Below the pieces are notes generated by a model. It was not told where the DNA came from. It made no database searches and saw only the letters and a list, made by a program, of their open reading frames with translations. The position numbers were made by a program, and so were the translations under genes. A stretch of DNA of 50,327 nt, from the NCBI GenBank assembly GCA_036511855.1, contig DATCBN010000088.1:1-50327 (forward strand). The letters run 5' to 3'. Shown one piece after another: positions 276 through 28,042 of the stretch; position 1 is the stretch's first letter, and each line of letters begins with the position of its first letter. This DNA is from Candidatus Eremiobacteraceae bacterium (GTDB lineage Bacteria; Vulcanimicrobiota; Vulcanimicrobiia; Eremiobacterales; Eremiobacteraceae).

Positions 276-332
276 GTACTAGGGCAAGCATCGCTTGCCC
301 GAAAAACGGGTGAGCGCTGCTCACCCTAGTAC
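276..332. repeat. Bipartite palindromic element, full copy 1
   Basis: Two adjacent hairpins with 8-bp perfect stems: GGGCAAGC-ATC-GCTTGCCC (282-300) and GGGTGAGC-GCT-GCTCACCC (308-326), joined by a 7-nt A-rich linker. The unit is bounded by GTACTAGGG at the left and its reverse complement at the right (ends 332). The same two stems in opposite order occur at 15191-15244 and 27989-28042. The element sits between divergent genes (peptidase start at 194, cyclase start at 493). A further inverted repeat GCCCTAC/GTAGGGC flanks it at 243-271. The rest of 195-492 holds a G9 run (362-370) and the presumed cyclase promoter; no gene is visible there. Confidence 0.85.
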
Positions 333-492: not shown

Positions 493-2883
493 ATGTCCCC
501 GAATACGAAGAATATCTCCAATTCCGGGTCGCCTGCCCGACTCGCACTGTTCAGCGCCACAGCCCGCTTGCTGGCAAAAGATCTGTCGCTCGATGATATG
601 TTCAAACAAGCCGCATCGCTATTGGACGACGCCTTCGATACGGCATCGATCGAGATCTCGCTCTCCGGCGGCGCGCCGCGAAGATTCCACTACGGCGTCA
701 AAGCCGAATTCGAACTAGGCGCGACCGTAAGTCTGCCACTTCAATTTCACGAAAGCGACATAGGCACGCTCCGTATCGTACGAAAAACCGTGCAGGCATT
801 CTCAGCCGCAGAAATCGAGTGCCTCGAGACGTTCGCGCTATCCATTGCGGCTCGCCTAAACGAGGCGACGATCACCTCTGAGAAAGATCACTATGCGTCG
901 CTCGCGGGCATCGACCCGCTGACCGGAATCCCGAGTCGCCGAGAGTTCAACGCGCGGTTCGAAGCGGAGTGGTCACGCGGGGTGCGACAAGGCGGCTTGC
1001 TTTCGGCGATGATGATCGACGTAGATTTCTTCAAACAGTATAACGATCACCACGGGCATATCGCAGGCGACGCTTGCCTGCATATGATCGCGCAGATATT
1101 GACGCAGTGCACCGCGCGACCTGGCGACACGGTCGCGCGCTACGGTGGCGAGGAGTTCGCCATCATATTGCCTCAGACAGACAATGCCGGAGCGGTCGCG
1201 CTCGCCGAAAAGATGCGGTCTGCCGTAGCAGCGCAAAGGATCGCTCATGACGGTGCGGTGCTTGAAGTGGTCACGGTGAGCATCGGCGTGGCGACACAGA
1301 CCCCGCTGCAATCAACCACTTCGTCGGAATTGCTCGAAATAGCAGACATCGCGCTCTACTCGGCAAAGCAGGCGGGTCGCAATACGGTTGTCGGCGATCG
1401 CTATCGAACGGACGCGGCTCAAACAGGCAAGCCCCCGATCCAATCGAATCTACCCCCGAAGCTCACGAGTTTCTTCGGCAGAGCCGCGGAACTCGACGCC
1501 ATCGAATACCTTTCCGCTCAGACACGGTCGATTACGATCACCGGCATCGCCGGAATCGGCAAGACGCGCGTGGCGCTGCAAACCGCCAACAAGGACTTGC
1601 ACAAATATCCCGACGGCGTGTGGTTCATCGACCTTGCGAGAATCACGGACGCCGCTCTGGTCGTCGGCAGCGTCATGTATGTGCTCGGACTCAGCGAAGA
1701 ACAAGGAAAGCAGCCGGTGGCGACGCTGGTCGAACGCATCGGCAGCCGGCGGATGCTTATTGTGCTCGACAACTGCCAACGTTTGATCGAGGAATGCGCA
1801 GCGTTGACCGAGTCACTTCTGCGCAAATGTCCAAATGTCTCAGTCATCGCCACCTGCAGGAAACCCCTCGGCATCGCGGGCGAGATCGCGTACAGAATCC
1901 CGGCATTGGCGTTTCACGATGCGGCGGATCTTTTCGTCGCACGCGCGACGGCGATCAACCCCGATTGCGATTTCAAGGCCGAAGACCGGGGATTGGTCGA
2001 ACGCATCGTGGCTCGGCTTGCGGGCGTTCCCATGGCCATCGAATTGGCCGCAGCCCGCATCAAAGTGATGACGTTCAACGAGCTCGAGACTCGGCTATTG
2101 GAACGCTTTCCGGTGCTGCTCCCGGGCGGCGACATCGCCTCATCGCGCGAACATATCTTGCCGGCATTGGTCGATTGGAGTTACATCATCCTCGACGACG
2201 AAGAGAAGCGCTTGCTGCGCCGGCTCGCAGTGTTTCCCGGCGACTTCACGATCGATGCATCCGCGCACGTCTGCATCGAGCGAGAAGACGAACGACGCGC
2301 GGAGCTTGAAGTTCTTTCACGTCTCGTGGACAAGGCTTTCTTGCTCGACGAGAAGCGCGGCGATTCTCGATACGACATGTTCGAAACGGTTCGCGACTAT
2401 TGCCGTCGGATGATGAAAGAGCGCAACGAAATAAGCGATTTGCAGAATCGTCACGCGAATTACTATCTTGAACTAGCGACGCGTATCGAACTCAACCGGA
2501 ACGACTCGTCAACCGCGAACTGGAAAAAAGACGTGGAGACGGAGCTACATAATTTCCGCTCGGCGCTTGAGTGGTCCGTTCTTGGCGACGGAGATCTCGT
2601 CGTCGGCACGTCGCTCGCCGTCGAACTAGCGACGTGGTGGGCCGAAACAAGCCATTTCAGTGAAGGACGTTATTGGCTCGACCACATCATCTGGCGGACG
2701 AACGACGGGAAGATGGCCACCGATCTGCACACGCGACTCTTCGCTGCGGCAGGCCTTATCGGCAGCCGCCAGGCGGGCGCCTCGACAAACGGCCATCCAC
2801 TGAACGGCCATCCAATGAACGGCAATGCGCTAAACGGCCATGCGGCAATCGATCACGCGACTGAACCGCAAGGCGCAACATAG
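493..2883 (+). CDS. Diguanylate cyclase (GGDEF) fused to NB-ARC-type STAND ATPase
   Basis: 796 residues. Residues 1-130 look like a degenerate GAF-type sensor. Residues ~135-303 are a GGDEF domain with an intact active-site loop GGEEF (218-222) and the RxxD inhibitory site RPGD exactly five residues before it (209-212), so c-di-GMP synthesis with product feedback is expected. Residues ~325-575 are an NB-ARC/AP-ATPase module: FFGR entry motif, Walker A GIAGIGKT (351-358), Walker B MLIVLDN (421-427), then a winged-helix region. The C-terminus has only the start of the helical repeats usual in such ATPases and ends in a low-complexity tail with repeats of NGHP/NGHA type. No signal peptide or membrane segment is seen; it is cytoplasmic. 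The start is supported by GGGAGA 5 nt before the ATG. The usual partner of this ATPase is an adenylate cyclase or a DNA-binding domain, so the cyclase fusion is the odd point. Confidence 0.85.
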   Translation: MSPNTKNISNSGSPARLALFSATARLLAKDLSLDDMFKQAASLLDDAFDTASIEISLSGGAPRRFHYGVKAEFELGATVSLPLQFHESDIGTLRIVRKTVQAFSAAEIECLETFALSIAARLNEATITSEKDHYASLAGIDPLTGIPSRREFNARFEAEWSRGVRQGGLLSAMMIDVDFFKQYNDHHGHIAGDACLHMIAQILTQCTARPGDTVARYGGEEFAIILPQTDNAGAVALAEKMRSAVAAQRIAHDGAVLEVVTVSIGVATQTPLQSTTSSELLEIADIALYSAKQAGRNTVVGDRYRTDAAQTGKPPIQSNLPPKLTSFFGRAAELDAIEYLSAQTRSITITGIAGIGKTRVALQTANKDLHKYPDGVWFIDLARITDAALVVGSVMYVLGLSEEQGKQPVATLVERIGSRRMLIVLDNCQRLIEECAALTESLLRKCPNVSVIATCRKPLGIAGEIAYRIPALAFHDAADLFVARATAINPDCDFKAEDRGLVERIVARLAGVPMAIELAAARIKVMTFNELETRLLERFPVLLPGGDIASSREHILPALVDWSYIILDDEEKRLLRRLAVFPGDFTIDASAHVCIEREDERRAELEVLSRLVDKAFLLDEKRGDSRYDMFETVRDYCRRMMKERNEISDLQNRHANYYLELATRIELNRNDSSTANWKKDVETELHNFRSALEWSVLGDGDLVVGTSLAVELATWWAETSHFSEGRYWLDHIIWRTNDGKMATDLHTRLFAAAGLIGSRQAGASTNGHPLNGHPMNGNALNGHAAIDHATEPQGAT

Positions 2884-2998
2884 GCCACGGATCCTGTTTC
2901 CAAGGGAACGGTCGGTGACGCGAATTTTAGCCCACTCTCATCTGCCAGCGATATCCGTTGCTGTGGGACGGGTATAAGTACGGTGGGAGATTATGATA

Positions 2999-3436
2999 AT
3001 GATGAAACGCTTCACCGCAGCGGTCGCCGCGACCGCACTCGTCGCGATTTCGGGGGCCATCACAATGCCGGCCGCGGCATCCGCCAGCTCCGCGACGCAA
3101 ATGTCTTATACCACTACCCTGATGCAGGTCGAGCCGATTTCGGCGCCGGGCGAATTTGACGGAAAACTGAAACTCACCGTCTCATCGGCGGGCCTTGTCA
3201 GCGGTTACTATATCCCGGCCGATTCTGGACAGATCATGTCGGTTGTCGGTGGCGTTGCCGACAGCAAGTACTGGATGGACATCGGCGGCACAGCGCCGTT
3301 GCATATCATCGCCTCGCTCGGCAAGGACGGATCGCTAGTCGGCACAGCCACGCCGAGTCCGTTCTCCCGCAGCCAGCGCTACGAGGCAGCGGCGGAGACG
3401 TACTCGTTCGTCGCAAAACCGCAACCGGCGACATAA
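2999..3436 (+). CDS. Small secreted protein of unknown function
   Basis: About 145 residues. ATG codons lie at 2993, 2999 and 3002. GGGAGA at 2985-2990 is only 2 nt from the first but 8 nt from 2999, so 2999 is preferred. Residues ~1-30 form a signal peptide (MMKRF, hydrophobic AAVAATALVAISGAI, AxA-like cleavage near AAASA). The mature part has no Cys and alternates hydrophobic and polar residues in a way that suggests a small beta-sandwich. No family was recognised. It is the first of three consecutive genes for exported proteins on this strand, 46 bp before the next one, so it may share a transcript and a periplasmic or extracellular role with the metalloprotease downstream. Confidence 0.75.
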   Translation: MMKRFTAAVAATALVAISGAITMPAAASASSATQMSYTTTLMQVEPISAPGEFDGKLKLTVSSAGLVSGYYIPADSGQIMSVVGGVADSKYWMDIGGTAPLHIIASLGKDGSLVGTATPSPFSRSQRYEAAAETYSFVAKPQPAT

Positions 3437-3482
3437 CCGCCGCAAAGGTCGCGTAGAATGACCATGCGAACCCCAGCGCCTG

Positions 3483-4211
3483 ATGAAGGCCAAGCTGGGG
3501 TTCGCTTTAGTTTGGGGGCTCACTGCGGCCGCTCTTGCGATGCAAGTTCCCGCCGACGCCCAGCCATTTGCTGCGGTATCCGATGCAACGCCGGCCCCGA
3601 CGGCGACGCCGAAAACCTTGGGCCATCAAACGGTTAGCGCGTTCTGCACCGCCTTCGTCACGCGATACAATGACGCCGAAACAACATTGCTAGGCGACGA
3701 CAGACTACTTGACGACGCGATCGCGGCCGAGACCGACTTCGAGAACGATTTCTTCAGGCTCGACGGCGAATCTCGCCGGTGGAATCACCGCCTCGCGATG
3801 ATCGCGGCGCTGACCCAGATCATTCACACAATACCGAAAACGCAAGCCGCGGTGAACGATCTCCGCGCGCAAGCAGCGGCCAGCGTCGACGCCGAACGCC
3901 GGGCCGCATTATCTGAAGGAGCGTCCGAACTCCAATCGTCGGTGGACCACCAGCGCATTGTGGCCAATGAGTTGACCGACGCCGTCGATTCGATGCTTGA
4001 CGTGCACACGGGCGACGATGCAGTTTCCGCCCATCATGGTGGTGATTTGCCGCCGGTGCGGGCCGCCGGTGCGTATTACGGATCGGCGCTCGAGGTCGTC
4101 ATGCACATGCCGCGCGACCGCCAGCTCGCGGCGGATGCCGAATCAAACGCTGCGATGGCCGTCACCGCAGTCGTGAGGAGCTGCGCGCTGGAGTCTAGGA
4201 GCGTGCAATGA
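3483..4211 (+). CDS. Secreted alpha-helical protein coupled to a metalloprotease gene
   Basis: 242 residues with an N-terminal signal peptide (MKAK, then a hydrophobic run to about residue 26, ADAQP cleavage region) and a short Thr/Pro/Ala-rich linker (TPAPTATPKT). The mature part is helical, with a long Ala/Glu/Asp-rich central stretch that could form coiled coils, and two Cys (FCTAF and SCALE) that could pair outside the cytoplasm. No family was recognised. Its TGA overlaps the ATG of the metalloprotease gene (ATGA, 4208-4211), so the two are translationally coupled. From the coupling and shared export one can infer a partner role such as chaperone, prodomain in trans or inhibitor; the sequence alone does not show which. 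Confidence 0.75.
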   Translation: MKAKLGFALVWGLTAAALAMQVPADAQPFAAVSDATPAPTATPKTLGHQTVSAFCTAFVTRYNDAETTLLGDDRLLDDAIAAETDFENDFFRLDGESRRWNHRLAMIAALTQIIHTIPKTQAAVNDLRAQAAASVDAERRAALSEGASELQSSVDHQRIVANELTDAVDSMLDVHTGDDAVSAHHGGDLPPVRAAGAYYGSALEVVMHMPRDRQLAADAESNAAMAVTAVVRSCALESRSVQ

Positions 4212-6796
4212 AGAGCATCGCGTCAATCGTCGCGTTCGCAGCAATTTTAGGTCTTGCCATTCCAGCCAATGCCGAAGGTCAGAGCTCGCTCGGCGAGTAC
4301 GACTCGTTCACCCAATCGGCGCAAGCGCAGCACGGGCTGTTCACCGTTTGGCGCAAGGACGATCACGTCTACCTCGAGCTGACGCCGGCGCAGCTCGATC
4401 ATGATTTCATCGAGACCATCGTACCGGGCACCGGCGCGGGCGGCTGGTTCATCGTGTGGGGCAACACCGATCATCTGCCGGCGATGCTCGTGCGCTTCGA
4501 GCGCATCGGCGACAAGGTGGCGATCACGTGGCCCAACACCAGCTTCGCCGCCCAAAACGGGTCGCCGGCGGCGCTGGCCATCGCACGAAACTTCCCGCAG
4601 TCTGTCGAGGGCGTGGGCCAAATCACCGCGACCGACGCCAAGACGGGCGACGTCATCTTCGATGCGTCGCCGCTGCTTCAAGACGAATTGGATTTCAACA
4701 ACATCATCAACCCGTCGTTGAACGTCGCGGACACGCCGAAGGAATATCGCCTCGATGACAGCCGCACGTTCTTCGGGCCGACCAAGTCGTTCCCCAACAA
4801 CGTGCTGATCGAAGCCGATCAGACTTGGGCGACGTCGGCGGCCCACGTGCTCGACACCGCGCCGGACGCGCGCAGCGTGCAGATCCGCGTCGAGTATAAT
4901 TTTGCCGAGCCGCCCGGCGACGTGGACTACACGCCCCGCTACGCAGACGATCGCGTGGGCATATACGATGACATCTATCTGCAGTTCGACCGCGACCAGC
5001 AGCAAGAGCGCCAGTTGCGCTACCTCATCCGCTGGAACATGCAGCCGTCCGATCCGTCCAAGCGGATCTCGCCGGCCAAGCATCCCATGATCATGTACAT
5101 CAGCAACACTATTCCCGTGCGCTATCGCGCTTCCATCAAAGGCGCCGTCCTCGCGTGGAACGCCGCGTTCGAGCGCATCGGCATCAGCGACGCGCTGCAA
5201 GTGCGCGATCAACCGAGCGACCCGAATTGGGATCCCGACGACATCCGCTACAATGTCATCCGCTGGGTCCCCGAATGGCAGCCGTCGTTCGGCGCGGATT
5301 CGCAAACCTTGTACGATCCGCGCACCGGACAAGAGTTTCGCACGGGCATTCTCTTGAGCGCCGATTCTGTGGGCTTAGCGAATTGGATCGACAACATAGA
5401 TCCCGTGGGTCACGGCGGCGCCGGCCAGAGTCCGGCGTCTGAAGAAGATGCATTCGTCCAGCAGGACCGCGCATTCGGCGCGGCGGCGCTGGAGGTGATG
5501 AATCCACTGTGGGGCGACCGCCTTCCAGACTGGTACGTCGACGATGCGATGCGCTCGACCGTGCTGCACGAGATGGGGCACAACATGGGCATGCAGCACA
5601 ACTTCATCGGCTCGGAAGCGTACACGGCCAAGGATCTGCAAAGCCTCGACTTCACGCGACGTTATGGCACGACGTCTTCCGTCATGGAATACGCCCCGCT
5701 CAACATCTGGCCGAAGGGCTACGGTCAAGGGATGTACTTCGCCGACGCGCTCGGCCCATACGATTACTACGCCATACGATTCGGATACGCGCCCATTCCC
5801 GGCGCCACCACGCCCGACGCCGAATGGCCAACTCTCGAACGTTGGGCGCAAGGCTGGTCGGACCCGAAGTACCGCTATGCGTCGGACGAGGACGTCTCAT
5901 GGGGCGACGGACACGCCGCGGATCCGCGCGCGCAGACCGGCGATCTCACCAACGACTCGTTGAGCTGGTGCGCGGTGCGCTTCGGACTCGTCCACTCGCT
6001 GGTCAGCACGCTCGACAGCCGGCTCCCGCGTACGGGGCAGCCGTATCAGTTCGAGCGCAACGCATTCCAAGCGTTTTTCCGCCAAGATGCCGCGCTCGCG
6101 CGCATCGGCGAGAACTTCATCGGCGGCCAGTACCTTTCGCGCGCGCACCGCGGTGACCCGGGCGCCGCCGCGCCCATCGTGCCCGTGCCGCGCGCCGAGC
6201 AAGAACGCGCGCTCGCGCTCCTCGACCGGTTTGTGTTCTCACCCGACGCCTGGAACTACTCGCCTGTGCTGCTCAGCCACCTTGGCTATTCCGAATGGTC
6301 GGGATACGGCTATGTAGGCTGGACGGGCTACGGCAACTTGCCGTTTTGGGCATACAACCCGCCGGCCCAACACGACGTCTCCATCGTCGAAGCGATCGGC
6401 GGCCTTCAACAGAACACGATCGATGCGATGTTCAAGCCGGCCGTGCTTTCGCGGATCGAGCGTAATCCGCTCGAATCGCCCAGCGGTCCGACGCTCACGC
6501 TTGCCGATCTTTTCGACCATCTGCAGGCCACCGTGTACGGCGATCTTTCGAAGGGTTCGTTGCGCGATATCCCATTGCTGCAGCGGAACCTGCAGGAGCG
6601 TTATGCGCAAACGTTGGCCACCGTCGCCACGGCGCCCGCAGAGGGGACGCCGTTCGAGGCGCAAGCGTTGGCGCGCGAGCACCTTGCCGCGCTCGGCCAC
6701 AACGTGGATTTAAGTCTTCGCGGGACCAGCCTCGACGCGGCCACGCGAGCGCATCTTGACGCGTTGCGCGCGCGGGTCGCTAAAGCGCTTAAGTAG
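4208..6796 (+). CDS. Secreted zinc metalloprotease, DUF5117/DUF4953 type
   Basis: 862 residues with a signal peptide (MKSIASIVAFAAILGLAIPANA). The catalytic zinc motif is HEMGHNMGMQHN at about residues 454-465: HExxH plus a GxxH-like third ligand, followed by SVMEY about 30 residues on, the Met-turn arrangement of metzincin-like peptidases. The preceding half matches the layout of the DUF5117 family (beta-rich domain, then VRYNVIRWVPEW just before the catalytic domain). Length is typical for the family. AGGAG lies 7 nt before the ATG, which overlaps the upstream stop. The protein is probably periplasmic or extracellular. Substrate is unknown. The metalloprotease assignment is firm because of the motif; the precise family name is from memory of similar proteins. 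Confidence 0.9.
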   Translation: MKSIASIVAFAAILGLAIPANAEGQSSLGEYDSFTQSAQAQHGLFTVWRKDDHVYLELTPAQLDHDFIETIVPGTGAGGWFIVWGNTDHLPAMLVRFERIGDKVAITWPNTSFAAQNGSPAALAIARNFPQSVEGVGQITATDAKTGDVIFDASPLLQDELDFNNIINPSLNVADTPKEYRLDDSRTFFGPTKSFPNNVLIEADQTWATSAAHVLDTAPDARSVQIRVEYNFAEPPGDVDYTPRYADDRVGIYDDIYLQFDRDQQQERQLRYLIRWNMQPSDPSKRISPAKHPMIMYISNTIPVRYRASIKGAVLAWNAAFERIGISDALQVRDQPSDPNWDPDDIRYNVIRWVPEWQPSFGADSQTLYDPRTGQEFRTGILLSADSVGLANWIDNIDPVGHGGAGQSPASEEDAFVQQDRAFGAAALEVMNPLWGDRLPDWYVDDAMRSTVLHEMGHNMGMQHNFIGSEAYTAKDLQSLDFTRRYGTTSSVMEYAPLNIWPKGYGQGMYFADALGPYDYYAIRFGYAPIPGATTPDAEWPTLERWAQGWSDPKYRYASDEDVSWGDGHAADPRAQTGDLTNDSLSWCAVRFGLVHSLVSTLDSRLPRTGQPYQFERNAFQAFFRQDAALARIGENFIGGQYLSRAHRGDPGAAAPIVPVPRAEQERALALLDRFVFSPDAWNYSPVLLSHLGYSEWSGYGYVGWTGYGNLPFWAYNPPAQHDVSIVEAIGGLQQNTIDAMFKPAVLSRIERNPLESPSGPTLTLADLFDHLQATVYGDLSKGSLRDIPLLQRNLQERYAQTLATVATAPAEGTPFEAQALAREHLAALGHNVDLSLRGTSLDAATRAHLDALRARVAKALK

Positions 6797-6823
6797 GAAT
6801 CTCGGCTCGTAGGAGGGTGAGCT

Positions 6824-6931
6824 GTACTGGGGCAAGCATCGCTTGCCCGTTCCAAAAAAAATCTGGGCAAGCGATGCTTGCCCTAGTACGCGCGAAGAAA
6901 AAAAAGGGGCAAGGGATGCTTGCCCTAGTAC
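6824..6931. repeat. Cluster of three half-palindromic elements
   Basis: Three copies of the GGGCAAGC...GCTTGCCC hairpin: 6830-6848 (loop ATC, preceded by GTACTG), 6865-6883 (loop GAT, followed by TAGTAC) and 6907-6925 (one mismatch, GGGCAAGG, followed by TAGTAC). They are separated by A-rich stretches of 16 and 23 nt. A different inverted repeat, GCCGAC/GTCGGC, follows at 6933-6951. The cluster fills the gap between the convergent metalloprotease and pbpC genes, so it could also act as a bidirectional transcription terminator, although there is no U-tract placed as in a standard intrinsic terminator. GTAGGAGGGTGAGC precedes both this cluster (6810) and the one at 15172. Confidence 0.85.
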
Positions 6932-6953
6932 AGCCGACCATAAAAGTCGGCCC

Positions 6954-9287
6954 CTACGTGGATCGGCCCGGCAACGAGAATCCGGTGGGCAGCGGCTGAG
7001 CGACGGTGCGCCGCACATAGATGTGGACTTGGTCGGCTGCTGAGCCATCGGATGCCTCCACCGTCCACGCGCCGTCGCGCAACTTCCAGATCGCGCGCAA
7101 CCCATTTGCGGTCAGCGCTGCGATTGGTTTGCCGTTCACGCGCCACCGCACATACGAATTCGGCGCCGCCGCAGCCTGCAATTCGAGCGCTTGCGCATCG
7201 CCGATCTCGACGCCCGCGTTGGTGGCGTGCAGCACGAACTCGTCGCCTTCCCGGGGAAACACGATCCGCACGCGCGGAATATGCATGGCCACCGGCTTCG
7301 ATGCGATCGTCGCGGCGGTACCGATCGAACGAGCCGGCGGCATGGCCGTGCGGAAATATCCCGTTAGATCCTGGGGATAAAGATACTCCGAGACGACCGC
7401 CGGACAATTAGGGCCCGGAACGTTGCCGGTCGTCGCGCAGATCGGTTCTCGCACGAGCGTCGCCGGAAGCGCGAACGGCGCCGGATCGCGGCTCTCGTGC
7501 AGATGCAGCATGATGCGGTTCCACAACGGCGCAGCGCCCACAACACCCGAAACGCGCCGCATTGGGCGGCCGTCGAAGTTGCCGGCCCAAACGCCGACGG
7601 TGTAATCGGTGGTGTAGCCCACGGTCCACGTGTCGCGGTAGTCCGACGATGTTCCGGTCTTGACGGCCGCCGGAAATGGCGGCGCGAGCATGGAGTCGAC
7701 ACCGAACGACGCGGCGCGAGCGTGCGGATCGGCCAGCATGTCGGTGATGAGTTGCCAGGCGGCCGGATCGCCGATCTGACGGCCGGCGGCGACGGCGCTT
7801 CCATGAGGGCTCGCATCTCCAGCGCCGGCTAGCAGCACTCGCAGCGGAATCTCGTCGCCCGAGCGCGCCGCAGTGAGATACGCGTGCGTCAGCTCCCACA
7901 GGCTCACCTCGCCCGAGCCCAACGTGAGACCAAGGCCATAAAATTCCGCCGGCTTGTCCAAGTGGACAAACCCGAGCGCGCGCAGCCGGTCGAGAAACGT
8001 TCCCACACCGGTGAGCGACAGAACACGCACGGCCGGAACGTTGAGCGAATCCGCAAGAGCCACGCGCACCCGCACGGGACCCAGATACGTCTCGGAGTAG
8101 TCGCTGGGACTGTAGAGCTGCCCGCCGGGAATAGCGTAGTACGCTTGCGTGTCTTGGAGTATCGTGTTCGGCCGGATGACGTGACTTTCGAGCGCATCTT
8201 GATAGAGGAACGGCTTCAACGTCGAACCGGGTTGGCGCAGACTTTGCACGCCGTCGTTGCGGCCGAGCGCGAGATCGTCGAAGTAGTCGGCCGAGCCGGC
8301 GTACGCGAGGACGTCGCCCGTCCGATTGTCCACCACCAGCACGGCCGCTTGGCTGACATCGTGGCCGGCAAGTCCGGCTAACGTCTGGCGTATCTGCGTC
8401 TCGACGAACTCCTGCAGCGGACGATCGAGCGTAGTTCGGGCGCGCGTGGTCCCAGGCGGCAGCGTCCCCGCCGTATAGAAGAGGAAATGCGCGCCGGCGA
8501 CGATGCCTTCATCGCGCGGCTGCAACGCCACCGATTCGTCGCCCGCGGTGTTTTCTTGCGCGGTCGTGATGTAGCCATCGGCTACCATCCGCGCCAGCAC
8601 GTATCGCTGACGGCTTCGCAGCGCGGACAGATGGCCGTACGGATTCAAGCCGGTCGGATCGTTCGGAAGCGCCGCGAGCAGACTTGCTTGTGCAAGGTCG
8701 AGCTTTGCCGCGGGAATGCCGAAGTACGTCCGCGAGGCCGCTTCGACGCCATAGATGTTGCCGCCCATGGGCAACCGGTTGACATATGCCTCGAGGATCT
8801 GCTCGCGATCCATGCCGGCGGCGATGCGCCAAGCACCCCATACCTCGAGCAGCTTGCCGGAGATGCCAATATGGCCGGCCGACAACATCCGCGCGAGCTG
8901 CATTGGGATCGTCGACGCGCCGCTCACCACCCGGCGCGTTTCGATCATCTGCCAGGTCGCGCGTGCGACCGCGGCCGCATCGACGGGCCCATGATGGTAG
9001 TAGCGGCCATCCTCGGCGGCGATGATCGCGTGCAAAAAATAAGGCGACACTTGCGCGAGCGACACGAACGCGGTATGCTCTTGGTCGCGCGATAACAACG
9101 TGCCGAGCGGCAAACCATTGCGATCGGAAAAATCTATGGCCGCCGACGTCGCATGAAGGTCGGCGGCGCGGATGGGTGCCAGGTAGGCCGAGAGCCGGAT
9201 CGCGATGCACGCGAACACGGCCGCAGCCACCGCCCGCCAAAGCGGGCTGAGGGGCCGCGAGGTGAGACCGACGAGGAATGTGCGCAC
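6954..9287 (-). CDS. pbpC: Penicillin-binding protein 1C, bifunctional
   Basis: 777 residues. It polymerises and cross-links peptidoglycan in the periplasm. There is one N-terminal membrane anchor (~residues 14-38). The GT51 transglycosylase domain shows EDGRYYHHGPVD around residue 92 (catalytic Glu), GASTIPMQLARML (123-135) and ILEAYVNRLPMGGNIYGVE. The transpeptidase domain has all three active-site motifs: STLK (355-358), SLN (414-416) and KTGTS (543-547). The last ~100 residues match the C-terminal domain special to PBP1C. The start is GTG at 9285-9287. It is divergent from the alpha-2-macroglobulin gene with 28 to 64 bp between them, a pairing known in many Gram-negative bacteria where the two are usually in one operon. 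Confidence 0.93.
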   Translation of the reverse strand: MRTFLVGLTSRPLSPLWRAVAAAVFACIAIRLSAYLAPIRAADLHATSAAIDFSDRNGLPLGTLLSRDQEHTAFVSLAQVSPYFLHAIIAAEDGRYYHHGPVDAAAVARATWQMIETRRVVSGASTIPMQLARMLSAGHIGISGKLLEVWGAWRIAAGMDREQILEAYVNRLPMGGNIYGVEAASRTYFGIPAAKLDLAQASLLAALPNDPTGLNPYGHLSALRSRQRYVLARMVADGYITTAQENTAGDESVALQPRDEGIVAGAHFLFYTAGTLPPGTTRARTTLDRPLQEFVETQIRQTLAGLAGHDVSQAAVLVVDNRTGDVLAYAGSADYFDDLALGRNDGVQSLRQPGSTLKPFLYQDALESHVIRPNTILQDTQAYYAIPGGQLYSPSDYSETYLGPVRVRVALADSLNVPAVRVLSLTGVGTFLDRLRALGFVHLDKPAEFYGLGLTLGSGEVSLWELTHAYLTAARSGDEIPLRVLLAGAGDASPHGSAVAAGRQIGDPAAWQLITDMLADPHARAASFGVDSMLAPPFPAAVKTGTSSDYRDTWTVGYTTDYTVGVWAGNFDGRPMRRVSGVVGAAPLWNRIMLHLHESRDPAPFALPATLVREPICATTGNVPGPNCPAVVSEYLYPQDLTGYFRTAMPPARSIGTAATIASKPVAMHIPRVRIVFPREGDEFVLHATNAGVEIGDAQALELQAAAAPNSYVRWRVNGKPIAALTANGLRAIWKLRDGAWTVEASDGSAADQVHIYVRRTVAQPLPTGFSLPGRST

Positions 9288-9315
9288 GGGCTAAAGCATT
9301 TCTTGGAGCGCGCGT

Positions 9316-12300
9316 TTGACGCAATGCATTCGCAGGGACGGATGGCCAGTCATGCCGAGCAACGGTGCCACAGCCCGCGGGGCGAGATTTTTCGCCTGCA
9401 CGATATTCCTATTGGGTCTTGGCGCGTTAGGGGCCGGATGCGCGCATAAAGAAGCGCCGCTGCCTGCCGTGGCGCCCGTGCCTGCACCCACTCTGCAGTC
9501 CTGGATCGCCGAGATAAGTCCGCAAGGCGAGGCCGATCCGCTTTCGCAGATACGCATCATCTTCAAACAGCCGGTCATTCCGGTCGAAAGCATCGAGAGT
9601 CCCGACGCGCAAACCGAGCTCGCGAGGTTTTCCTTGCTGCCGTCGCTGCCCGGACATTTCCGCTTCCTCACGCCGCGCATGGTGGGTTTCCAAGCCGACG
9701 CTGCGATACCCGTGGCGACGCGAGTTCAAGTCAGGATCGCAGCCGGTCTCACCGACGTCAAGGGCGACCGGCTCGACCGCGACCTGACCTGGACATTTCA
9801 AACCGAATCGGTCACCCTGACCGGCTTGCCGGGCACGGACGAAAACGGCGCGTTGATGGAAAATCCCGATCCGGGCGTCATCCGGCCGCGCTTGGTGGTC
9901 CGCGCGAATACCGAACTCGACATCGCGTCGCTGCGGTCGCATACGTCGCTCGCGCCCGAACGGGGCGGCGCCACCGCGTCCGTCGATGTCGAGCGCGACA
10001 CGTCGTCGCCGCCGCCGTGGCAATGCGATGCGTGCGACGGCGACAACGCAAGCTCGGGCTTCGACCCTTCGAAGGCCGACTGGGCCTACACCATCACGCC
10101 GACAGCCGACTTGGCGAAGGGGACCCGCTACGCGTTGGTGTTCTCTCCGGGCATAAACCCGACGCACGGCAATCTGCCAAGCACGGACAAATTCGCCGGC
10201 CGGGTCGTCACGTTCGCGCCGTTAGCGCTACAGAAGCACGAATTGACCGGTCAGCCCGGCCCCGACGGACCCTCCGGCCGGTTCGTCAACGGCGTGCTCC
10301 AGCTTGCGTTCAACAACGGCATCGACGCGGCGTCGGCAGGCACGAACATCACGATTTCGCCGGCCTCCTCGGATGCATCGCACCTGCTCGATGTGTACGA
10401 TGGCGACAACACGGCGACGCTCAATCCGCTCGTTCTCGCTCCGGACACCGCCTACACCGTCACCATCGGCGCGGGTTTGAAAGATCAATTCGGTCAGACG
10501 CTCGGGGCGGCGCAGACGGTCGCCTATAGCACCGGCGATTTGGCCGGCGATATCTGGGCAGCCGAGGGCCTGCACGTCTTTCCGCTGGACACCGGTCTGC
10601 GAATCGATGTCGCGACGGTCAACCTTCCCAAAAAACGATACAGCGCGGCGTATCGCGTGTTGACGCCGGCCGATCTCGTATGGCTCGATCCGCAGGATAC
10701 CGATATCTCGCGCATCTTGCCCGATTCGAAGGCATGGACGAACTATCCGGTGACGGCGCCGAAGAACCAACTCGTCACCACTGCGGTGCCGATCGCCGAC
10801 AAGCTCGGCGGCCCCACCGGCCTGCTGGCCTACGGTATCCAAGCGGACACAAACCAGTACGGAGCCGACAGCCCGAAGGCGTGGCGCACTCGCCAACTCT
10901 TCGGTGTGGTGGAGTTGACAAACCTCGGCGTCTTCGCACAGTGGTACCCGTCATCGGGCCTGGTTCGAGTCAGCCGCCTCTCCGACGGCGCACCGGTCGG
11001 CGGCGCAACGATCGAAGTTTATCCGTCGCGCGTTTCCTACGACCCTACGCCGGCCGGCGCGACCGCGCCATGCGCGACCGCGATGACCGACTCCACAGGG
11101 ACGGCGCACTTCGGTTCTGCAGACGTGAAGCCGTGCATGACGTTCTCGCAGTCACCGGATCAGGCGCCGGACTTGCTCACGGTCGTGAAGACGTCCGCCG
11201 ATTGGGCGTACGTCCGCACGTCGTCGTGGGATGGCTCGTACGGCTATGGTCTCTACGGCGGCTGGGACGGGGGAGGCGTGCCGCAATCGTGCGGGTCCGT
11301 TTACTCCGACCGGCAACTCTATCAACCCGGCGAAACCGTTCGTTTGAGCGGCGCGGCGTTTGCGTTGAGCGGCGGCAAGATCCAGCGCGAAAGCGGCGTG
11401 CGATTCCGCGTGACCCTCGACGATCCGAACGGAAATCACACGCTCGCCGGCACGACCGCCGCCGATGCGTTCGGCGCCTTCACGTTGTCGATTCCACTTG
11501 CCATGAATCAGGCTCTCGGCTACTACAGCGTGACCGCCAAAGGCGATGACGGGGTCGTGATCAACGGCGACTTCCGCGTGGCGCAGTTCCGCGCTCCTAA
11601 CTTCAAAGTCGCGCTGACGTTGGACAAGCAGTACGCGCCCGCCGGCGGCACGGTCAGCGCAACGGCCAGCAGCACGTACCTCTTCGGCTCACCGGTCGAA
11701 GGCGGCTCGGCGCAATACTACGTGACGCGTTCGCAGGCCGACCTCAATCCAAAAGGTTGGGATACATATCAGTTCGGTCCAAGGTGGTTCTGGCCCGACC
11801 AGGCGCCCGACGCGACAAGCGATGTGCTCCAGAGCGCTCAGACGATCGACGCAAAGGGCGCAAGCGCGCTGACGATCCCGGTCGCGGCCGACCTTCCGTA
11901 TCCGATGTCGTACCGCGTCGACATGCAGACGACCGACGTCTCACATCTGTCGGTGAGCGACTCGAAATCGTTCACGGCGTTGCCGTCGCTCGACCTGATC
12001 GGCCTGCACAACGATTGGGTGGCCACGGCTGGCAAGCCGTTCGCCGAAAGCGTGATCGTCACCGATCCCGACGGAAAGCCGCAATCCGGCAATCGCGTGC
12101 ATCTCGAACTGCAGTCCATGAAATACATATGGGCGGGTCAGATCGTGGAAGGCGGAGAGGCGCCGCAGGACCGTGTGCTCTACACCACGGTCGCGCAAGA
12201 CGACATCACGTCCACCAGTTCGGCCGTCGCCGTGTCGTTCACGCCGAAATCGTCAGGAGAATATCGCATCCGCGCGAACTTCCCCGGCGCGAGCAATGCA

Positions 12301-15141
12301 GCGACTGAATCAGACGACATCATCTACGCGACCGGCGACGAGCCGTACGCGTGGGGCAGCGACAATCCGGCCGGCATCCAGGTGAAGCTCGACAAACCGA
12401 ACTACAAAATCGGCGACCTCGCAACAGCCCTGATCGAATCTCCCTATCCGGCCGCCGAACTCTACTTCGCCGTGATCCGCCACGACGTGATCTCGTCGCA
12501 GATCTTGCAGGTGAAGGGCAGCGCGCCGCGCGTGCAGTTCCGCGTCGCGCCGGACATGGTGCCGAATGCAGCGGTAGAGGCGGTGCTCGTGCGTCGTGGG
12601 CGGCCGCTCGGTCAGTTGGCGTCGGGCACGTTGGACAGCCTTGCGCGCGCCGGATTCGCGCCGTTCAACACCGATCTGGGTTCGCACTATCTCAAAGTGG
12701 GAGTCCGTCCGGCACACGCCACCATCGAGCCCGGCCAAATGCAGACGATTCGCCTTTCCTTGCACGACGCAAATGGCAGACCAGCGGCCGGAGAGTTCGC
12801 CGTGATGGTCGTCAACGAGGCCGTGCTGCAATTGACCGGTTACCGGCCGCCGGATCTTGTGAAGACCGTTTTTGCCGATCAGCCGATATCAACGCGGTTT
12901 TCAGACAACCGGCCCAACGTCGTGCTGAGCAAGCAAAAGCTTGCGGGCGAAAAAGGTTGGGGTTACGGCGGCGGGTTTGGCGCCGGCGCTGCGGGAACGC
13001 GCGTCCGCACAAATTTCCAGCCGATCGCGTATTACAACGGCGCTGTGCGCGCGGATTCGTCGGGGAATGCGGTCGTCTCGTTCGCGCTTCCCGATGACCT
13101 GACGACTTGGCGCGTGATGGCGGTCGCCATCGGTCCACCCGGCGCGCCCGGTGCGCCCGATCCGCTCACGTTCGGCAGCGCCGACGCCACCTTCATCGCG
13201 AACAAACCGCTCGTCACCAACGCGCTGCTGCCGCAATTCGCCCGGCCGGGCGATGAGTTTCTCGGCGGCGTGACGGTTACCAATTCCACGGGCGCGCCGG
13301 CGCAAGTCGCGATCACGGGCCTCTTGGCTGGCCCGCTCGCATTCACGAGTACGTCGGCCCAAACCAACCGAGTGCAATCGACCGAAACGGCGGCCGTCGG
13401 CACGAGCGCCTTCCGGTTCGACATGAAGATCACGGGCGATGGAAGCGCCACCGTGCGATTCGATTCAGGCATGGCGGGCCTCACCGATGCGTTCGCATTG
13501 CCGCTCGACGTCGTTACGCGCAGCGTCCTCGAGTCCACAGTCGACACCGGCTCCACGCAGACCACCGCCACCGTGCCGATAAACGTCGGTCCGGACGTGA
13601 CGCACGACGCCGGCGGGTTGCAGCTCACTGTGGCTAGTTCGCTCGTGCCGTTCGTCGCCGGGCCGGCGGCCCGGATGATCGACGATTACCCGTTGCCGTT
13701 CGCCGAAACCGCCGGAAGCAGATTGCGTGCAGCGGCCGATATCGCGATCATCAACAAGCGCTTCGCCAGCCCGCTGACCGGCGTCGACGTCGCGGCCACA
13801 TCCGGCCTTGCGATGCAACAACTCGCGGCGCTGCAGCTTAGCAACGGCGGGCTGGCCCCATGGCCCGGCGCGACGAAGGCGGCGCCGCTCGACAGCGCGT
13901 ACGCGGCGCTCGCACTCGCCCGCGCTCGAGAAGCCGGCCTAAAAGTCGATGACGTGGTATGGCGCCGGCTCAGCGACTACCTCGCAGTGAACCTTGCGAA
14001 TCCTTTCGACGACACGTGTACATCGGATCTGTGCGCCGCCGAAGTGCGCCTCGCCGATCTGCAAGCTCTTGCCGCGCTCGGAGAACGGCGCACCGACTTC
14101 TTGCAGGAGATATTCGATAAACGCGACCGGCTCTGCGACGTCACGCGCGTGGAGCTGGCGAGGTATCTCTCGCAAACGCCGGGTTGGGAGTCGCAAGCCA
14201 AGCAGATGAGTGACGCGATCGAGCGCAACGTCTACATCACAGGCCGCGGCGCGGCGGTGAGCCTGCCCGGCTCGTGGCAATGGTATAACTCGGAGACCAC
14301 CGCGCAGGCGCAGGCTTTGCGTTTGTTCGTCGCGCGGGCAGGCTCGACAGATATCGCCGACAACATGCTCAAGACTTTGCTCGGCATGCGCCGCAATGGA
14401 ACGTGGGGCGATTCTTACGACAATGCCGAAGCACTGGACGCGATCGTAGACTACGGCGTCGCGCAAGGACCGGCGCCGGCGTTCAACGCGATGATCACGC
14501 TCGCGCGAGCGCCGATCATGGCCGAACGGTTCGCCGGCTATGTCGACCCGGAGCGAAGCAAGTTCGTACCGATGACGGGTTTGGCGCGTGGGCGCAGCGA
14601 CCTCGCTCTTTCTAAAGAGGGAACGGGGACGCTGCACTACGTCGTCTCTTACCAATACCAGCCGGTCAACGGCGAGCCCGGTGCGATAAACGGCTTGCGC
14701 GTACTGCGCGAGATCCGCCCGGCCAACAAAGAGCAGGTGCTCGCCACGATCGGCGTCGGCTACTCAGGTCAGCCGATCGAACTGCCGGCGGGCAACGTGT
14801 TCGACATAGGTTTGCAGATCATCACCGATCACTTCGTGGATCACGTGGTCATCGACGACCCGCTCCCCGCTGGTTTCGAGGCGGTCGACACCTCGTTCGC
14901 CACCTCCACGCCGTACTTTCAAACCACGAGCGCGTGGCAGATCGACTTCCAGACGATTGCGCGCGACCGCGTGACGGCGTTCGCGTCCGAGCTTTCGCCC
15001 GGCGTGTATTCGATGCACTACCTCGTGCGGACGGTCACGCCCGGTACGTATGTCTGGCCGGGAGCGGAAGCGCAGCTGCAGTACGCGCCGGAGGAGTTCG
15101 GCAGAACAGCGTCCTCAACGGTAAAAGTGACCCAGCCATGA
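9316..15141 (+). CDS. Bacterial alpha-2-macroglobulin lipoprotein lacking the thioester
   Basis: Up to 1941 residues. A TTG start (9316, GGAG 7 nt upstream) or an ATG at 9352 are possible; the latter puts the lipobox LGAGC at residues 26-30 behind a short n-region and looks better. Order of parts: lipoprotein signal, repeated MG-type beta-sandwich domains (many DxxGxx and YxPGETVRLSG-type elements), the YQPGETV macroglobulin signature near 11324, the bait/A2M family domain, a helical thioester-domain (~13680-14560), and a C-terminal receptor-like domain. Bacterial versions trap proteases in the periplasm and protect the envelope, often with PBP1C, which is the divergent neighbour. At the thioester position (residues ~1458-1470) the sequence is YPLPFAETAGSRL where the family has YPxGCxEQTTSRL, so the Cys and Gln are both missing. 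That resembles the thioester-less YfaS/MagD class and implies non-covalent trapping. Confidence 0.92.
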   Translation: MTQCIRRDGWPVMPSNGATARGARFFACTIFLLGLGALGAGCAHKEAPLPAVAPVPAPTLQSWIAEISPQGEADPLSQIRIIFKQPVIPVESIESPDAQTELARFSLLPSLPGHFRFLTPRMVGFQADAAIPVATRVQVRIAAGLTDVKGDRLDRDLTWTFQTESVTLTGLPGTDENGALMENPDPGVIRPRLVVRANTELDIASLRSHTSLAPERGGATASVDVERDTSSPPPWQCDACDGDNASSGFDPSKADWAYTITPTADLAKGTRYALVFSPGINPTHGNLPSTDKFAGRVVTFAPLALQKHELTGQPGPDGPSGRFVNGVLQLAFNNGIDAASAGTNITISPASSDASHLLDVYDGDNTATLNPLVLAPDTAYTVTIGAGLKDQFGQTLGAAQTVAYSTGDLAGDIWAAEGLHVFPLDTGLRIDVATVNLPKKRYSAAYRVLTPADLVWLDPQDTDISRILPDSKAWTNYPVTAPKNQLVTTAVPIADKLGGPTGLLAYGIQADTNQYGADSPKAWRTRQLFGVVELTNLGVFAQWYPSSGLVRVSRLSDGAPVGGATIEVYPSRVSYDPTPAGATAPCATAMTDSTGTAHFGSADVKPCMTFSQSPDQAPDLLTVVKTSADWAYVRTSSWDGSYGYGLYGGWDGGGVPQSCGSVYSDRQLYQPGETVRLSGAAFALSGGKIQRESGVRFRVTLDDPNGNHTLAGTTAADAFGAFTLSIPLAMNQALGYYSVTAKGDDGVVINGDFRVAQFRAPNFKVALTLDKQYAPAGGTVSATASSTYLFGSPVEGGSAQYYVTRSQADLNPKGWDTYQFGPRWFWPDQAPDATSDVLQSAQTIDAKGASALTIPVAADLPYPMSYRVDMQTTDVSHLSVSDSKSFTALPSLDLIGLHNDWVATAGKPFAESVIVTDPDGKPQSGNRVHLELQSMKYIWAGQIVEGGEAPQDRVLYTTVAQDDITSTSSAVAVSFTPKSSGEYRIRANFPGASNAATESDDIIYATGDEPYAWGSDNPAGIQVKLDKPNYKIGDLATALIESPYPAAELYFAVIRHDVISSQILQVKGSAPRVQFRVAPDMVPNAAVEAVLVRRGRPLGQLASGTLDSLARAGFAPFNTDLGSHYLKVGVRPAHATIEPGQMQTIRLSLHDANGRPAAGEFAVMVVNEAVLQLTGYRPPDLVKTVFADQPISTRFSDNRPNVVLSKQKLAGEKGWGYGGGFGAGAAGTRVRTNFQPIAYYNGAVRADSSGNAVVSFALPDDLTTWRVMAVAIGPPGAPGAPDPLTFGSADATFIANKPLVTNALLPQFARPGDEFLGGVTVTNSTGAPAQVAITGLLAGPLAFTSTSAQTNRVQSTETAAVGTSAFRFDMKITGDGSATVRFDSGMAGLTDAFALPLDVVTRSVLESTVDTGSTQTTATVPINVGPDVTHDAGGLQLTVASSLVPFVAGPAARMIDDYPLPFAETAGSRLRAAADIAIINKRFASPLTGVDVAATSGLAMQQLAALQLSNGGLAPWPGATKAAPLDSAYAALALARAREAGLKVDDVVWRRLSDYLAVNLANPFDDTCTSDLCAAEVRLADLQALAALGERRTDFLQEIFDKRDRLCDVTRVELARYLSQTPGWESQAKQMSDAIERNVYITGRGAAVSLPGSWQWYNSETTAQAQALRLFVARAGSTDIADNMLKTLLGMRRNGTWGDSYDNAEALDAIVDYGVAQGPAPAFNAMITLARAPIMAERFAGYVDPERSKFVPMTGLARGRSDLALSKEGTGTLHYVVSYQYQPVNGEPGAINGLRVLREIRPANKEQVLATIGVGYSGQPIELPAGNVFDIGLQIITDHFVDHVVIDDPLPAGFEAVDTSFATSTPYFQTTSAWQIDFQTIARDRVTAFASELSPGVYSMHYLVRTVTPGTYVWPGAEAQLQYAPEEFGRTASSTVKVTQP

Positions 15142-15190: not shown

Positions 15191-15285
15191 GTACTAGGGT
15201 GAGCAACGCTCACCCATTTGGGCAAGCGATGCTTGCCCTAGTACGGACGTAGAAAAAACGGGGCAAGCGATGCTTGCCCTAGTAC
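15191..15285. repeat. Bipartite palindromic element, full copy 2, plus an extra half copy
   Basis: Full unit at 15191-15244: GTACTA, hairpin GGGTGAGC-AAC-GCTCACCC (15197-15215), linker ATTT, hairpin GGGCAAGC-GAT-GCTTGCCC (15220-15238), TAGTAC. A second GGGCAAGC-GAT-GCTTGCCC hairpin follows at 15261-15279, again ending in TAGTAC. The order of the two hairpin types is the same as in the copy at 27989-28042 and the reverse of that at 276-332. The element lies between the alpha-2-macroglobulin stop and the acetyltransferase start, and the 201-bp gap holds nothing else recognisable. Confidence 0.88.
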
Positions 15286-21692: not shown

Positions 21693-23579
21693 CTAGCTAA
21701 GCGGTCCCGCGGGGGTGCGAAGGCGGCGCAGATCGCCGTCGCGCTGCGTCAGACCGATGCCGTCGAAGTACTCCATGAGCGGAAGCGCGTACTTGCGCGA
21801 AGTGCCGAAGGCGTCACGAACGCGCGCCATCGTCGCGCGTCCGTCGGCGTGCAGCAGACTGACCAACACGTCGCGCGCGCGCCCGATCTGCGTGCGCCGG
21901 TAGACATCTTCGCCGACGCGGACGAGCGCGCCGGTCGCGAAAAGCATGGTCATGGCATCGGAAGCGCCGTCGACGGTAGAGGTCGCGATGGCCGAGTGCA
22001 AAGCTTCATATGCACACGGCACGAGCGGATTCGCGTCGCCGGTCAAGAGTGCGCGCTCGATCAGCGCTCGTTGCTCGGGCTCGAGCTCCGGAACAAAATC
22101 GGGCAGATGCCAATAACGCGTGCGGAGTGCGACGCGGCCGTCTGCTTGCCAGGCGGCAAGTAAGCGCGCCGCCACCGGGTCGGTCAACGAAAGCACGGCG
22201 GCGACCTCGGCGGTGGTGCAGCCCGCAGTCCACGGCATCGTCTCGTGACGCCTGCGCAGCGTGACCGACGCGACGGCGAACGCCGCGTCGGTCACGCTCG
22301 TGGCGAGATACTCTTTTGGTTTTGCCAGCGCGATCGCCATGCCGTGCTCGAGCAACTGCACGAGCGCCGGCTCGACATCGTGCACGACGACGTTGGCAGC
22401 GGAGGCGATCTTGACCGCTGCGAGCGGCACGAGACCAGCGGCCTCGAGCGCGTGAAGCGACGCCGATGCGACGGCCGACAATTCGCGCGCGGCCGGCGCT
22501 CTCGTCGAATTCCGTTCCGCCGCGTGACGCGTGACGGCCCCACCTAAAAGATCTTTCGGCGACATCCGGCGCAAGACGAGACGGCTGCCGGGATAGAATG
22601 CCACCGGCGAGTTGAGTGCGAGAACAGCGGGCGTCGCGTTTGCGTCGCTTGGCGCCCGTTTCTCAAATATGAGCAAACCCGGAATCTCAGCCGATCCGAT
22701 GTGGGCGCGGACGGGAGTGCGACGGCGCAGCATCGGCAACGCCGCGGGAAGCGGCGTGAATTCGACTTCCAGCGTGCGCGTGGGTTCGAACTCGGCGGGC
22801 GCGGTGAGCGTTTCACCCCGTGCGATGGACGCGACGTCGATGCCCGGCAAATTGAGCGCCACGCGCGCGCCGCCGGAAGCTTCAGCTACGGTCCGGCCAA
22901 ACGTTTGGATCTTCCGGATGCGGACGTCGACGCCGCTCGGCTGCAGCCTCAGCCGGTCGCCGGTGCGGATCGTGCCTTGCATGAGCGTGCCCGTCACAAT
23001 CGTGCCTTGACCGGGCAGCGCGAAGACTCGATCGATCGGAAGATAGGCGGGCGCTTCGGGCGCACGCGGCGGCAGTGCGAGGAGTTCGTCGTGAATGGCG
23101 GCGCGCAGTTCTGCGATGCCTTCGCCGGTGACGTTGGAGACCGCAAGGGCGGGCGCGTTCTCGGCGATCGTCGACCGGCATGCGTCGCGCGTGAGCGCGA
23201 GCGCGGTCGCGACGCCTGCCGCGTCGGTCGCGTCGGATTTGGTCAACACCACAATCGCGCGCCGCACGTTGAGGAAACTCAAGATCTGCAGATGCTCGAA
23301 CGTCTGCGGTCTCGGTCCTTCGGTGGCAGCCACGACGAGCAATAGCAGTTCCATGCCCGCCGCGCCGGCCAGCATGTTGTGGAGGAAGCGTTCGTGGCCG
23401 GGTACGTCGATAATGCCGGCTTCGATGCCATCGTCATATCTCAGCGGCGCAAAACCAAGGTCGAGGGTCATGCCGCGCTCGCGCTCTTCGAGCAAGCGGT
23501 CGGGATTGTGGCCGGTCAGCGATATCACGAGCGCGCTCTTGCCGTGATCCACATGTCCGGCGGTGCCGATTATGTGCAA
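21693..23579 (-). CDS. selB: Selenocysteine-specific elongation factor SelB
   Basis: About 628 residues if translation starts at the TTG 23577-23579, giving (M)HIIGTAGHVDHGKSALV, the normal SelB N-terminus; a reading 37 codons longer lies entirely within selA and looks like out-of-frame sequence. GTPase motifs: G1 GHVDHGKS, G2 region RGMTLDLGFA, G3 DVPGHE, G4 TKSD. The EF-Tu-like domains 2-3 follow (LPGQGTIVTGTLMQGTIRTGD) and then the winged-helix repeats that bind the SECIS hairpin in selenoprotein mRNA. It delivers Sec-tRNA(Sec) to UGA codons. The TTG overlaps the end of selA by 10 nt. No selC, selD or selenoprotein gene was seen in the window. Confidence 0.92.
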   Translation of the reverse strand: MHIIGTAGHVDHGKSALVISLTGHNPDRLLEERERGMTLDLGFAPLRYDDGIEAGIIDVPGHERFLHNMLAGAAGMELLLLVVAATEGPRPQTFEHLQILSFLNVRRAIVVLTKSDATDAAGVATALALTRDACRSTIAENAPALAVSNVTGEGIAELRAAIHDELLALPPRAPEAPAYLPIDRVFALPGQGTIVTGTLMQGTIRTGDRLRLQPSGVDVRIRKIQTFGRTVAEASGGARVALNLPGIDVASIARGETLTAPAEFEPTRTLEVEFTPLPAALPMLRRRTPVRAHIGSAEIPGLLIFEKRAPSDANATPAVLALNSPVAFYPGSRLVLRRMSPKDLLGGAVTRHAAERNSTRAPAARELSAVASASLHALEAAGLVPLAAVKIASAANVVVHDVEPALVQLLEHGMAIALAKPKEYLATSVTDAAFAVASVTLRRRHETMPWTAGCTTAEVAAVLSLTDPVAARLLAAWQADGRVALRTRYWHLPDFVPELEPEQRALIERALLTGDANPLVPCAYEALHSAIATSTVDGASDAMTMLFATGALVRVGEDVYRRTQIGRARDVLVSLLHADGRATMARVRDAFGTSRKYALPLMEYFDGIGLTQRDGDLRRLRTPAGPLS

Positions 23580-25428: not shown

Positions 25429-25453
25429 GTACTAGGGCGAGCATCGCTTACCC
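25429..25453. repeat. Degenerate half copy of the palindromic element
   Basis: GTACTA followed by GGGCGAGC-ATC-GCTTACCC (25435-25453). Two positions differ from the GGGCAAGC/GCTTGCCC stem, and the paired positions are A-to-G on the left and G-to-A on the right, leaving one mismatched pair in each arm. It lies between trxA and the end of the pyrophosphorylase gene. The rest of this 120-bp gap shows nothing else. Confidence 0.7.
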
Positions 25454-27988: not shown

Positions 27989-28042
27989 GTACTAGGGTGA
28001 GCAACGCTCACCCAAATGGGCAAGCGATGCTTGCCCTAGTAC
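27989..28042. repeat. Bipartite palindromic element, full copy 3
   Basis: GTACTA, hairpin GGGTGAGC-AAC-GCTCACCC (27995-28013), linker AAAT, hairpin GGGCAAGC-GAT-GCTTGCCC (28018-28036), TAGTAC. It is identical to the copy at 15191-15244 except in the linker (AAAT against ATTT). It sits in the 100-bp gap between gyrA and the downstream pyrophosphorylase gene, both on the minus strand, so it is likely transcribed and could fold as two stacked hairpins in the mRNA. Confidence 0.88.

Follow-up and report, generated by a model that had tools for sequence, protein, structure and literature searches.

STAND switches and diguanylate cyclases

STAND-type ATP-driven switches serve plant and animal immunity as well as antibiotic regulation, usually though not universally with the help of sensor repeats such as TPRs, WD40 repeats or LRRs. 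Diguanylate cyclases, in turn, depend on two GGDEF domains coming face to face for catalysis. In proteins of known function, control of the GGDEF domain usually comes from the N-terminus, where a GAF domain plus helix is the usual dimerising input, and a gate on the C-terminal side is less usual.

Among solved structures, the STAND core closest to that of the protein described here belongs to AfsR, a Streptomyces regulator of SARP-NOD-TPR architecture (PDB 8k60, 8jke). In AfsR, the NOD and the TPRs inhibit the effector; ATP binding, not hydrolysis, relieves this inhibition, and the oligomeric state of the protein is unaltered by ATP (PMC10936776). In MalT, the switch from ADP to ATP leads to multimers (PMC4381067), and in PH0952 and MalT the contacts between the NOD and the TPR sensor form a second layer of autoinhibition (PMC6468293). 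Our literature search found no publication describing a GGDEF-STAND protein, the nearest statement being that GGDEF sometimes substitutes for the cNMP cyclase in NTPase-linked vWA-MoxR-VMAP conflict systems (PMC7159879). These are multi-gene systems with other components (VMAP, vWA), whereas the fusion described below has neither conserved neighbours nor a PADLOC match.

A GAF-GGDEF-STAND fusion in a single open reading frame

The window analysed here, i.e., the whole 50,327-base stretch of DNA, carries a single ATG-initiated ORF that encodes a 796-aa protein; third-position GC is highest along the whole frame and coding bias is even (Table 1). An earlier note, made from the sequence of this DNA, had described the product as a GGDEF diguanylate cyclase joined to an NB-ARC-type STAND ATPase. 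The joining itself is borne out: PF00990 matches the GGDEF domain with an E-value of 1.1e-47, and a profile of the STAND core retrieves AfsR first (E 1e-20 over 342 positions, 2-343), followed by Apaf-1 and plant NLRs. In line with this, Foldseek searches with a structure predicted for residues 318-796 from a thin alignment of five rows (mean pLDDT 74) retrieve Apaf-1, CED-4, plant NLRs, MalT and PH0952. Profile and fold identify a STAND core, and some relatives pass the Pfam cut-off for NB-ARC, with TPRs then following; in the window protein, however, NB-ARC just fails over the P-loop region (21.7 vs a cut-off of 23.5 bits), while AAA_22 just passes (27.2 vs 27 bits). No NCBIfam equivalog scored above its cut-off for the whole protein, the sole match being the domain model TIGR00254.

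As a STAND protein, the window copy thus has a P-loop NBD with Walker A and Walker B motifs, followed according to profile and Foldseek, at moderate model confidence, by the helical domain and winged helix that complete the NOD. C-terminal sensor repeats are absent from this copy and present in its relatives, so that its STAND membership rests on the NOD.

The domain list of the earlier note was correct for GGDEF and STAND but missed what precedes GGDEF, namely a weakly matching GAF-like domain at the N-terminus and a long helix. GAF_2 matches residues 43-120 with an E-value of 0.0026, and the same match is significant in some relatives (E 1.2e-12 in L131). For residues 1-317, AlphaFold2 (thin alignment of 23 rows, mean pLDDT 84) predicts an alpha/beta N-terminal domain, an unbroken helix and a GGDEF fold. 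According to both Pfam and this model, the N-terminus is GAF-GGDEF, and Pfam gives no class III cyclase match. The protein is probably cytoplasmic.

The nearest solved structure of the GGDEF domain is WspR, both by sequence and by fold (best PDB matches). With WspR and GAF-GGDEF cyclases, the window protein shares the GGDEF domain, the GGEEF motif, the I-site and an N-terminal helix input, but WspR has no STAND module, and in the window protein the GGDEF domain is internal instead of lying at the C-terminus. The diguanylate cyclase A-site residues are all present (D176, N184, D193, GGEEF, K292 and R296), the RPGD and GGEEF motifs stand at the canonical spacing of 5 residues, and Walker A and Walker B are intact; for GGEEF, RPGD and the two Walker motifs this agrees with the earlier note. 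AfsR and the window protein are alike in placing an effector at the N-terminus and the NOD after it; they differ in that AfsR combines a DNA-binding SARP effector with TPRs, whereas the window protein combines a GAF domain and a GGDEF enzyme without TPRs. Lacking the N-terminal SARP by which AfsR is recognised, the protein would be AfsR-like in its working, but is not an AfsR.

Table 1. Features of the GAF-GGDEF-STAND fusion gene, in window positions
Feature	Position	Strand	Evidence
GAF-GGDEF-STAND fusion ORF, 796 aa	493..2883	+	Open frame, third-position GC
GAF-like domain, residues 14-126, N-terminal	532..870	+	Pfam GAF_2, predicted alpha/beta fold
Long helix between GAF and GGDEF, residues 105-138	805..906	+	AlphaFold2 model
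GGDEF diguanylate cyclase domain, WspR-type, residues 139-297	907..1383	+	PF00990
I-site RPGD, residues 209-212	1117..1128	+	RxxD in 41/42 fusions
Active-site GGEEF, residues 218-222	1144..1158	+	GG[DE]EF in 41/42 fusions
Variable linker closing with (N)NLPP motif	1393..1458	+	Alignment; median identity 19%
STAND nucleotide-binding domain, residues 327-525	1471..2067	+	AAA_22/NB-ARC, AfsR profile, Foldseek Apaf-1
Walker A GIAGIGKT, residues 351-358	1543..1566	+	G....GK[ST] in 42/42 fusions
Walker B LIVLDNC, residues 422-428	1756..1776	+	Asp426 in 42/42 fusions
STAND helical and winged-helix part, residues 526-665	2068..2487	+	AfsR/Apaf-1 profile alignment, model
Helical arm-like stub, residues 666-757	2488..2763	+	219-318 further residues in relatives
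15-bp tandem repeat, NGHP/NGNA-type tail	2788..2841	+	Tandem Repeats Finder, 3.6 copies

Recurrence and conservation of the fusion

A junction query comprising GGDEF and NBD (window 898-1872) was searched in 149 genomes of the same phylum. In about 50 top matches beyond the window, both domains lie in one frame, collinear and at nearly equal spacing; these proteins are mostly 37-47% identical to the window protein, and their frames mostly span 1,000-1,100 aa. Of the 99 genomes of a sister family in the same class (f3), at least 34, from 16 of the 38 genera, carry the fusion. It is absent from the other 13 of the 14 genomes searched from the window's own family, and among the matches listed, none from the remaining families of the phylum spanned both domains. 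That the collinear fused frame recurs so widely in f3 argues that the join is under selection.

Recurrence also bears on whether gene prediction or assembly has welded a free GGDEF gene to a STAND gene. The gene does begin at base 493 of its contig, which the window covers in full, and thus close to the end, and other genomes of the family lack the fusion. However, such a chimera would hardly produce about 50 collinear fusions at nearly equal spacing in other genomes, nor does it fit the even coding bias across the frame or the position of the window's GGDEF and STAND domains, each of which is nearest to those of other fusions in its tree (see below). We regard an artefact of this kind as highly improbable, chimeric assembly and chance being ruled out by the collinear fusions together with both domain trees.

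Beyond the phylum, a search for the collinear fusion returned none in 1,335 genomes (396, 297, 244 and 398 in four other phyla, sampled around records with the names Microthrixaceae, Acidobacteriaceae, Synechococcales and Pseudomonas), a count that applies to thresholds of 1e-36 to 1e-44 with the best 5-9 candidates per genome scored, and to an arrangement close to that of the query, as reversed or very distant combinations of GGDEF and ATPase would be missed. One such combination exists in the phylum sampled around the Synechococcales record: two kinase-AAA_16-GAF-PAS-GGDEF proteins (L235 and L236; 1,819-1,851 aa) likewise carry an AAA_16/STAND-type P-loop ATPase and a GGDEF domain in one chain, but they have a Ser/Thr kinase head, and their ATPase lies more than 1,100 residues upstream of a C-terminal GGDEF domain, so that they are not collinear with the window protein. 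A scan of genome contigs turned up mostly free GGDEF proteins, along with a single STAND protein from Microthrixaceae that had no GGDEF match. Viral contigs contained no fusion, with class III cyclase-STANDs at three places on one contig only, and a plasmid-borne copy was rejected, as the top plasmid match (Deinococcus deserti) consists of separate GGDEF and LuxR-type genes. The suspicion that the GGDEF version is unusual therefore stands as far as these four phyla are concerned, but it is no one-off. The GGDEF-STAND fusion is a real and little-described kind of signalling protein, built on a STAND switch that is itself already known.

To compare the fusions, the window protein was aligned with 41 fusion proteins recovered from 40 loci. 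Walker A and the Walker B Asp are kept in all 42, as are Lys292, Arg296 and the GGDEF residues for metal and substrate; GG[DE]EF and the RxxD I-site are each kept in 41 of 42. Median identity to the window protein is 48% for GGDEF and 37% for the NBD, falling to 24% in the GAF domain, 19% in the linker and 22% in the arm, which vary freely. This pattern of motif conservation indicates that both machines are maintained intact together. A conserved operon partner did not emerge when the neighbours of the 40 fusion loci were clustered, the families found being common mainly to close relatives; the fusion protein thus appears to act alone. PADLOC gave no match for the window protein and a generic TPR model alone in one relative.

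Several individual fusions depart from the common plan. L165:3484-7830 (+) encodes a 1,448-aa protein with a PDZ domain before GAF-GGDEF-STAND-TPR, whose RxxD I-site is absent in the alignment. L146 holds a tandem pair of full-length GGDEF-STAND genes (4190-7411 and 7522-10743, +) separated by about 110 bases. In L152:1638-4841 (+), GGKEF replaces GG[DE]EF while the remaining motifs are retained, making this protein a possible I-site receptor form.

Alternative heads on a common STAND core

The STAND core of the window protein is present eight times in its genome, with four class III cyclase heads, two XRE helix-turn-helix heads, one membrane-GAF head (L030) and one GGDEF head; in other genomes, the same core also carries SARP heads. 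GGDEF can hence be seen as one head in a series of swaps that includes class III cyclase, XRE, SARP and membrane-GAF. In the alignment, the (N)NLPP motif starts the STAND core irrespective of the N-terminal head. The membrane-GAF type, found at L030:327-3203 (-) in the window genome and at L217:565-3417 (-) in a second genome (G073), combines membrane segments with a GAF-like head and has no known catalytic head.

Class III cyclases on this ATPase had been said to be common, and they do account for 37 of the 90 rows of our STAND tree, with many examples in the window's family. These cyclase-STAND-TPR proteins resemble the window protein in a 35-40% identical STAND core, an enzyme head at the N-terminus and an NNLP-type junction; they differ in that their head is of the cAMP/cGMP type instead of a diguanylate cyclase, and in being mostly full length with TPRs.

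In the tree of 90 STAND cores, the window protein groups with the f3 fusion L152 (SH-aLRT 92), and in a tree of 147 GGDEF domains it lies nearest the fusion GGDEFs, with 53% identity to L158. Common descent with the f3 fusions, plus transfer or repeated loss to account for the patchy spread, fits these sequence relationships best. The AU test speaks mildly against one clade for all GGDEF-STANDs (p = 0.027), albeit on a quickly built tree in which branches are long, so that heads may have been swapped repeatedly; we regard such repeated swapping as likely.

A predicted nucleotide-gated c-di-GMP synthase

We predict, with slightly better than even confidence, that the window protein is a nucleotide-gated c-di-GMP synthase whose GGDEF dimer receives two inputs. 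Catalytic activity, nucleotide gating, the sign of this gating and the effect of TPR loss are what we infer, as follows. One input would be the N-terminal GAF domain with its helix; since the GGDEF domain already has this one, the STAND module would constitute a second input, an AfsR/Apaf-1-type switch acting from the C-terminal side. With ADP bound, the closed core would separate the GGDEF domains or hold them in the wrong orientation. With ATP bound (and, in full-length relatives, an inducer on the TPRs), the core would open, two GGDEF domains could meet and c-di-GMP would be made, with the product feeding back at the I-site. The earlier note had proposed, correctly in outline, that the ATPase, as a ligand-triggered oligomerisation switch, could turn on c-di-GMP synthesis. 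Because AfsR does not change its oligomeric state with ATP, it is not assured that opening of the STAND module leads to GGDEF dimerisation, and the switch may just as well act by lifting inhibition as by enforcing dimerisation, although MalT does multimerise. The variety of effector heads on the STAND core is what would be expected of a general gate. As the window genome has 23 GGDEF, 9 EAL and 6 PilZ matches, this organism can both turn over and sense c-di-GMP.

The roles might also be reversed, such that the GGDEF domain serves mainly as a sensor of GTP or c-di-GMP via its I-site and thereby controls a STAND hub that works with another partner. STAND proteins usually bear an effector at one end, leaving the N-terminal end available for a sensor here; moreover, the I-site is conserved as strictly as the active site, and is retained in the GGKEF variant L152. 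However, a pure sensor has no need for the metal, substrate and catalytic-loop residues kept by every one of the aligned fusions, no conserved neighbour gene offers itself as the partner, and the paralogues place effectors (class III cyclase, XRE and SARP) at the very N-terminal position that the GGDEF domain occupies. We therefore consider reversed roles improbable and retain gated synthesis as the working model.

If gated synthesis is correct, it would extend the range of STAND switch outputs to c-di-GMP production. The fusion family also illustrates how one switch core swaps heads within single genomes. GGDEF-STANDs further allow a direct test of whether opening of the NOD joins catalytic domains or releases inhibition, as their product is easily measured, and nature provides a ready-made deletion series in the full-length, arm-only and NBD-only proteins.

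The missing TPR sensor

The sensing repeats had been suspected to be cut short, ending in an NGHP-type tail, and both points are borne out. Past the column of window residue 757, the 41 relatives continue for another 219-318 residues, which carry TPRs where tested with Pfam. The window protein instead ends about 40 residues further on, after its 15-bp-repeat tail, and alone among the 42 has no TPR tail. No TPR remnant was found downstream of the ORF in any frame. Frameshifted TPRs were rejected on the basis of a tblastn comparison of the relatives' C-terminal 330 aa with window 2601-4300, which gave no convincing match past the STAND core.

For the gated-synthase model, loss of the TPRs would remove the contact between NOD and sensor and thus one layer of autoinhibition, so that the window copy would be expected to obey nucleotide state and/or GAF input in place of a TPR ligand. 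With the TPR sensor gone, regulated switching may also have been lost altogether. The missing tail may reflect decay, and the C-terminal repeat could be a degenerating end. Carried further, the window copy would be a decayed or constitutive remnant, i.e., an ungated diguanylate cyclase with the STAND module as a passive dimerising or solubilising appendage, and the full-length relatives would be the true switches. Its lack of a TPR tail among the aligned fusions, its isolation as the sole fusion in a family of which 14 genomes were searched, and the 15-bp repeat expansion at its end are all consistent with such a fate.

Yet all catalytic and nucleotide-binding motifs of the window protein are intact, and TPR-less forms recur. 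Three class III cyclase-STANDs without TPRs, from three genera (L025, 682 aa; L042, 692 aa; L046, 620 aa), stop within a few residues of one point, with a common -LYS ending, nearly where the window protein ends, making up a conserved short form; one of these proteins is in the window genome itself. In addition, two GGDEF-NBD proteins of 512-522 aa from f3, L238:1594-3129 (+) and L239:1579-3144 (-), end directly after the NBD with GGEEF and Walker A intact. Such recurrence suggests that selection maintains TPR-less forms, in the class III cyclase line at any rate, and that the truncation in the window may be a working form. We therefore think it rather unlikely that the window copy is a remnant, and continue to favour a gated synthase. 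A more far-reaching prediction, namely that these proteins are recurrent, undescribed STAND-gated diguanylate cyclases of one lineage, with c-di-GMP under the direct control of an immune-receptor-type ATPase switch, and that their TPR-less members (the window copy, L238 and L239) set c-di-GMP according to ATP/ADP and not to a ligand, is doubtful as a whole.

Other features of the window

Short REP-like palindromes occur at window 282-300, 308-326, 6830-6883, 15197-15279, 25435-25453 and 27995-28036. Their motifs, GGGCAAGCATCGCTTGCCC and GGGTGAGCG(C/T)TGCTCACCC, have 14 and 7 matches, respectively, vs about 0 expected, and the palindromes are paired at several seemingly intergenic places. No tRNA genes were found within the window. 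A gene for a SelB-type elongation factor (GTP_EFTU plus SelB winged helix; window 21696-23690, -), which adjoins a 458-aa frame (window 23570-24946), suggests that the organism uses selenocysteine. A penicillin-binding protein 1C-like gene (window 6957-9287, -) adjoins a bacterial alpha-2-macroglobulin gene (9316-15138, +), a pairing known from other bacteria. Finally, window 38981-39985 (+) encodes a Kelch-repeat protein containing a 141-bp DNA tandem repeat.
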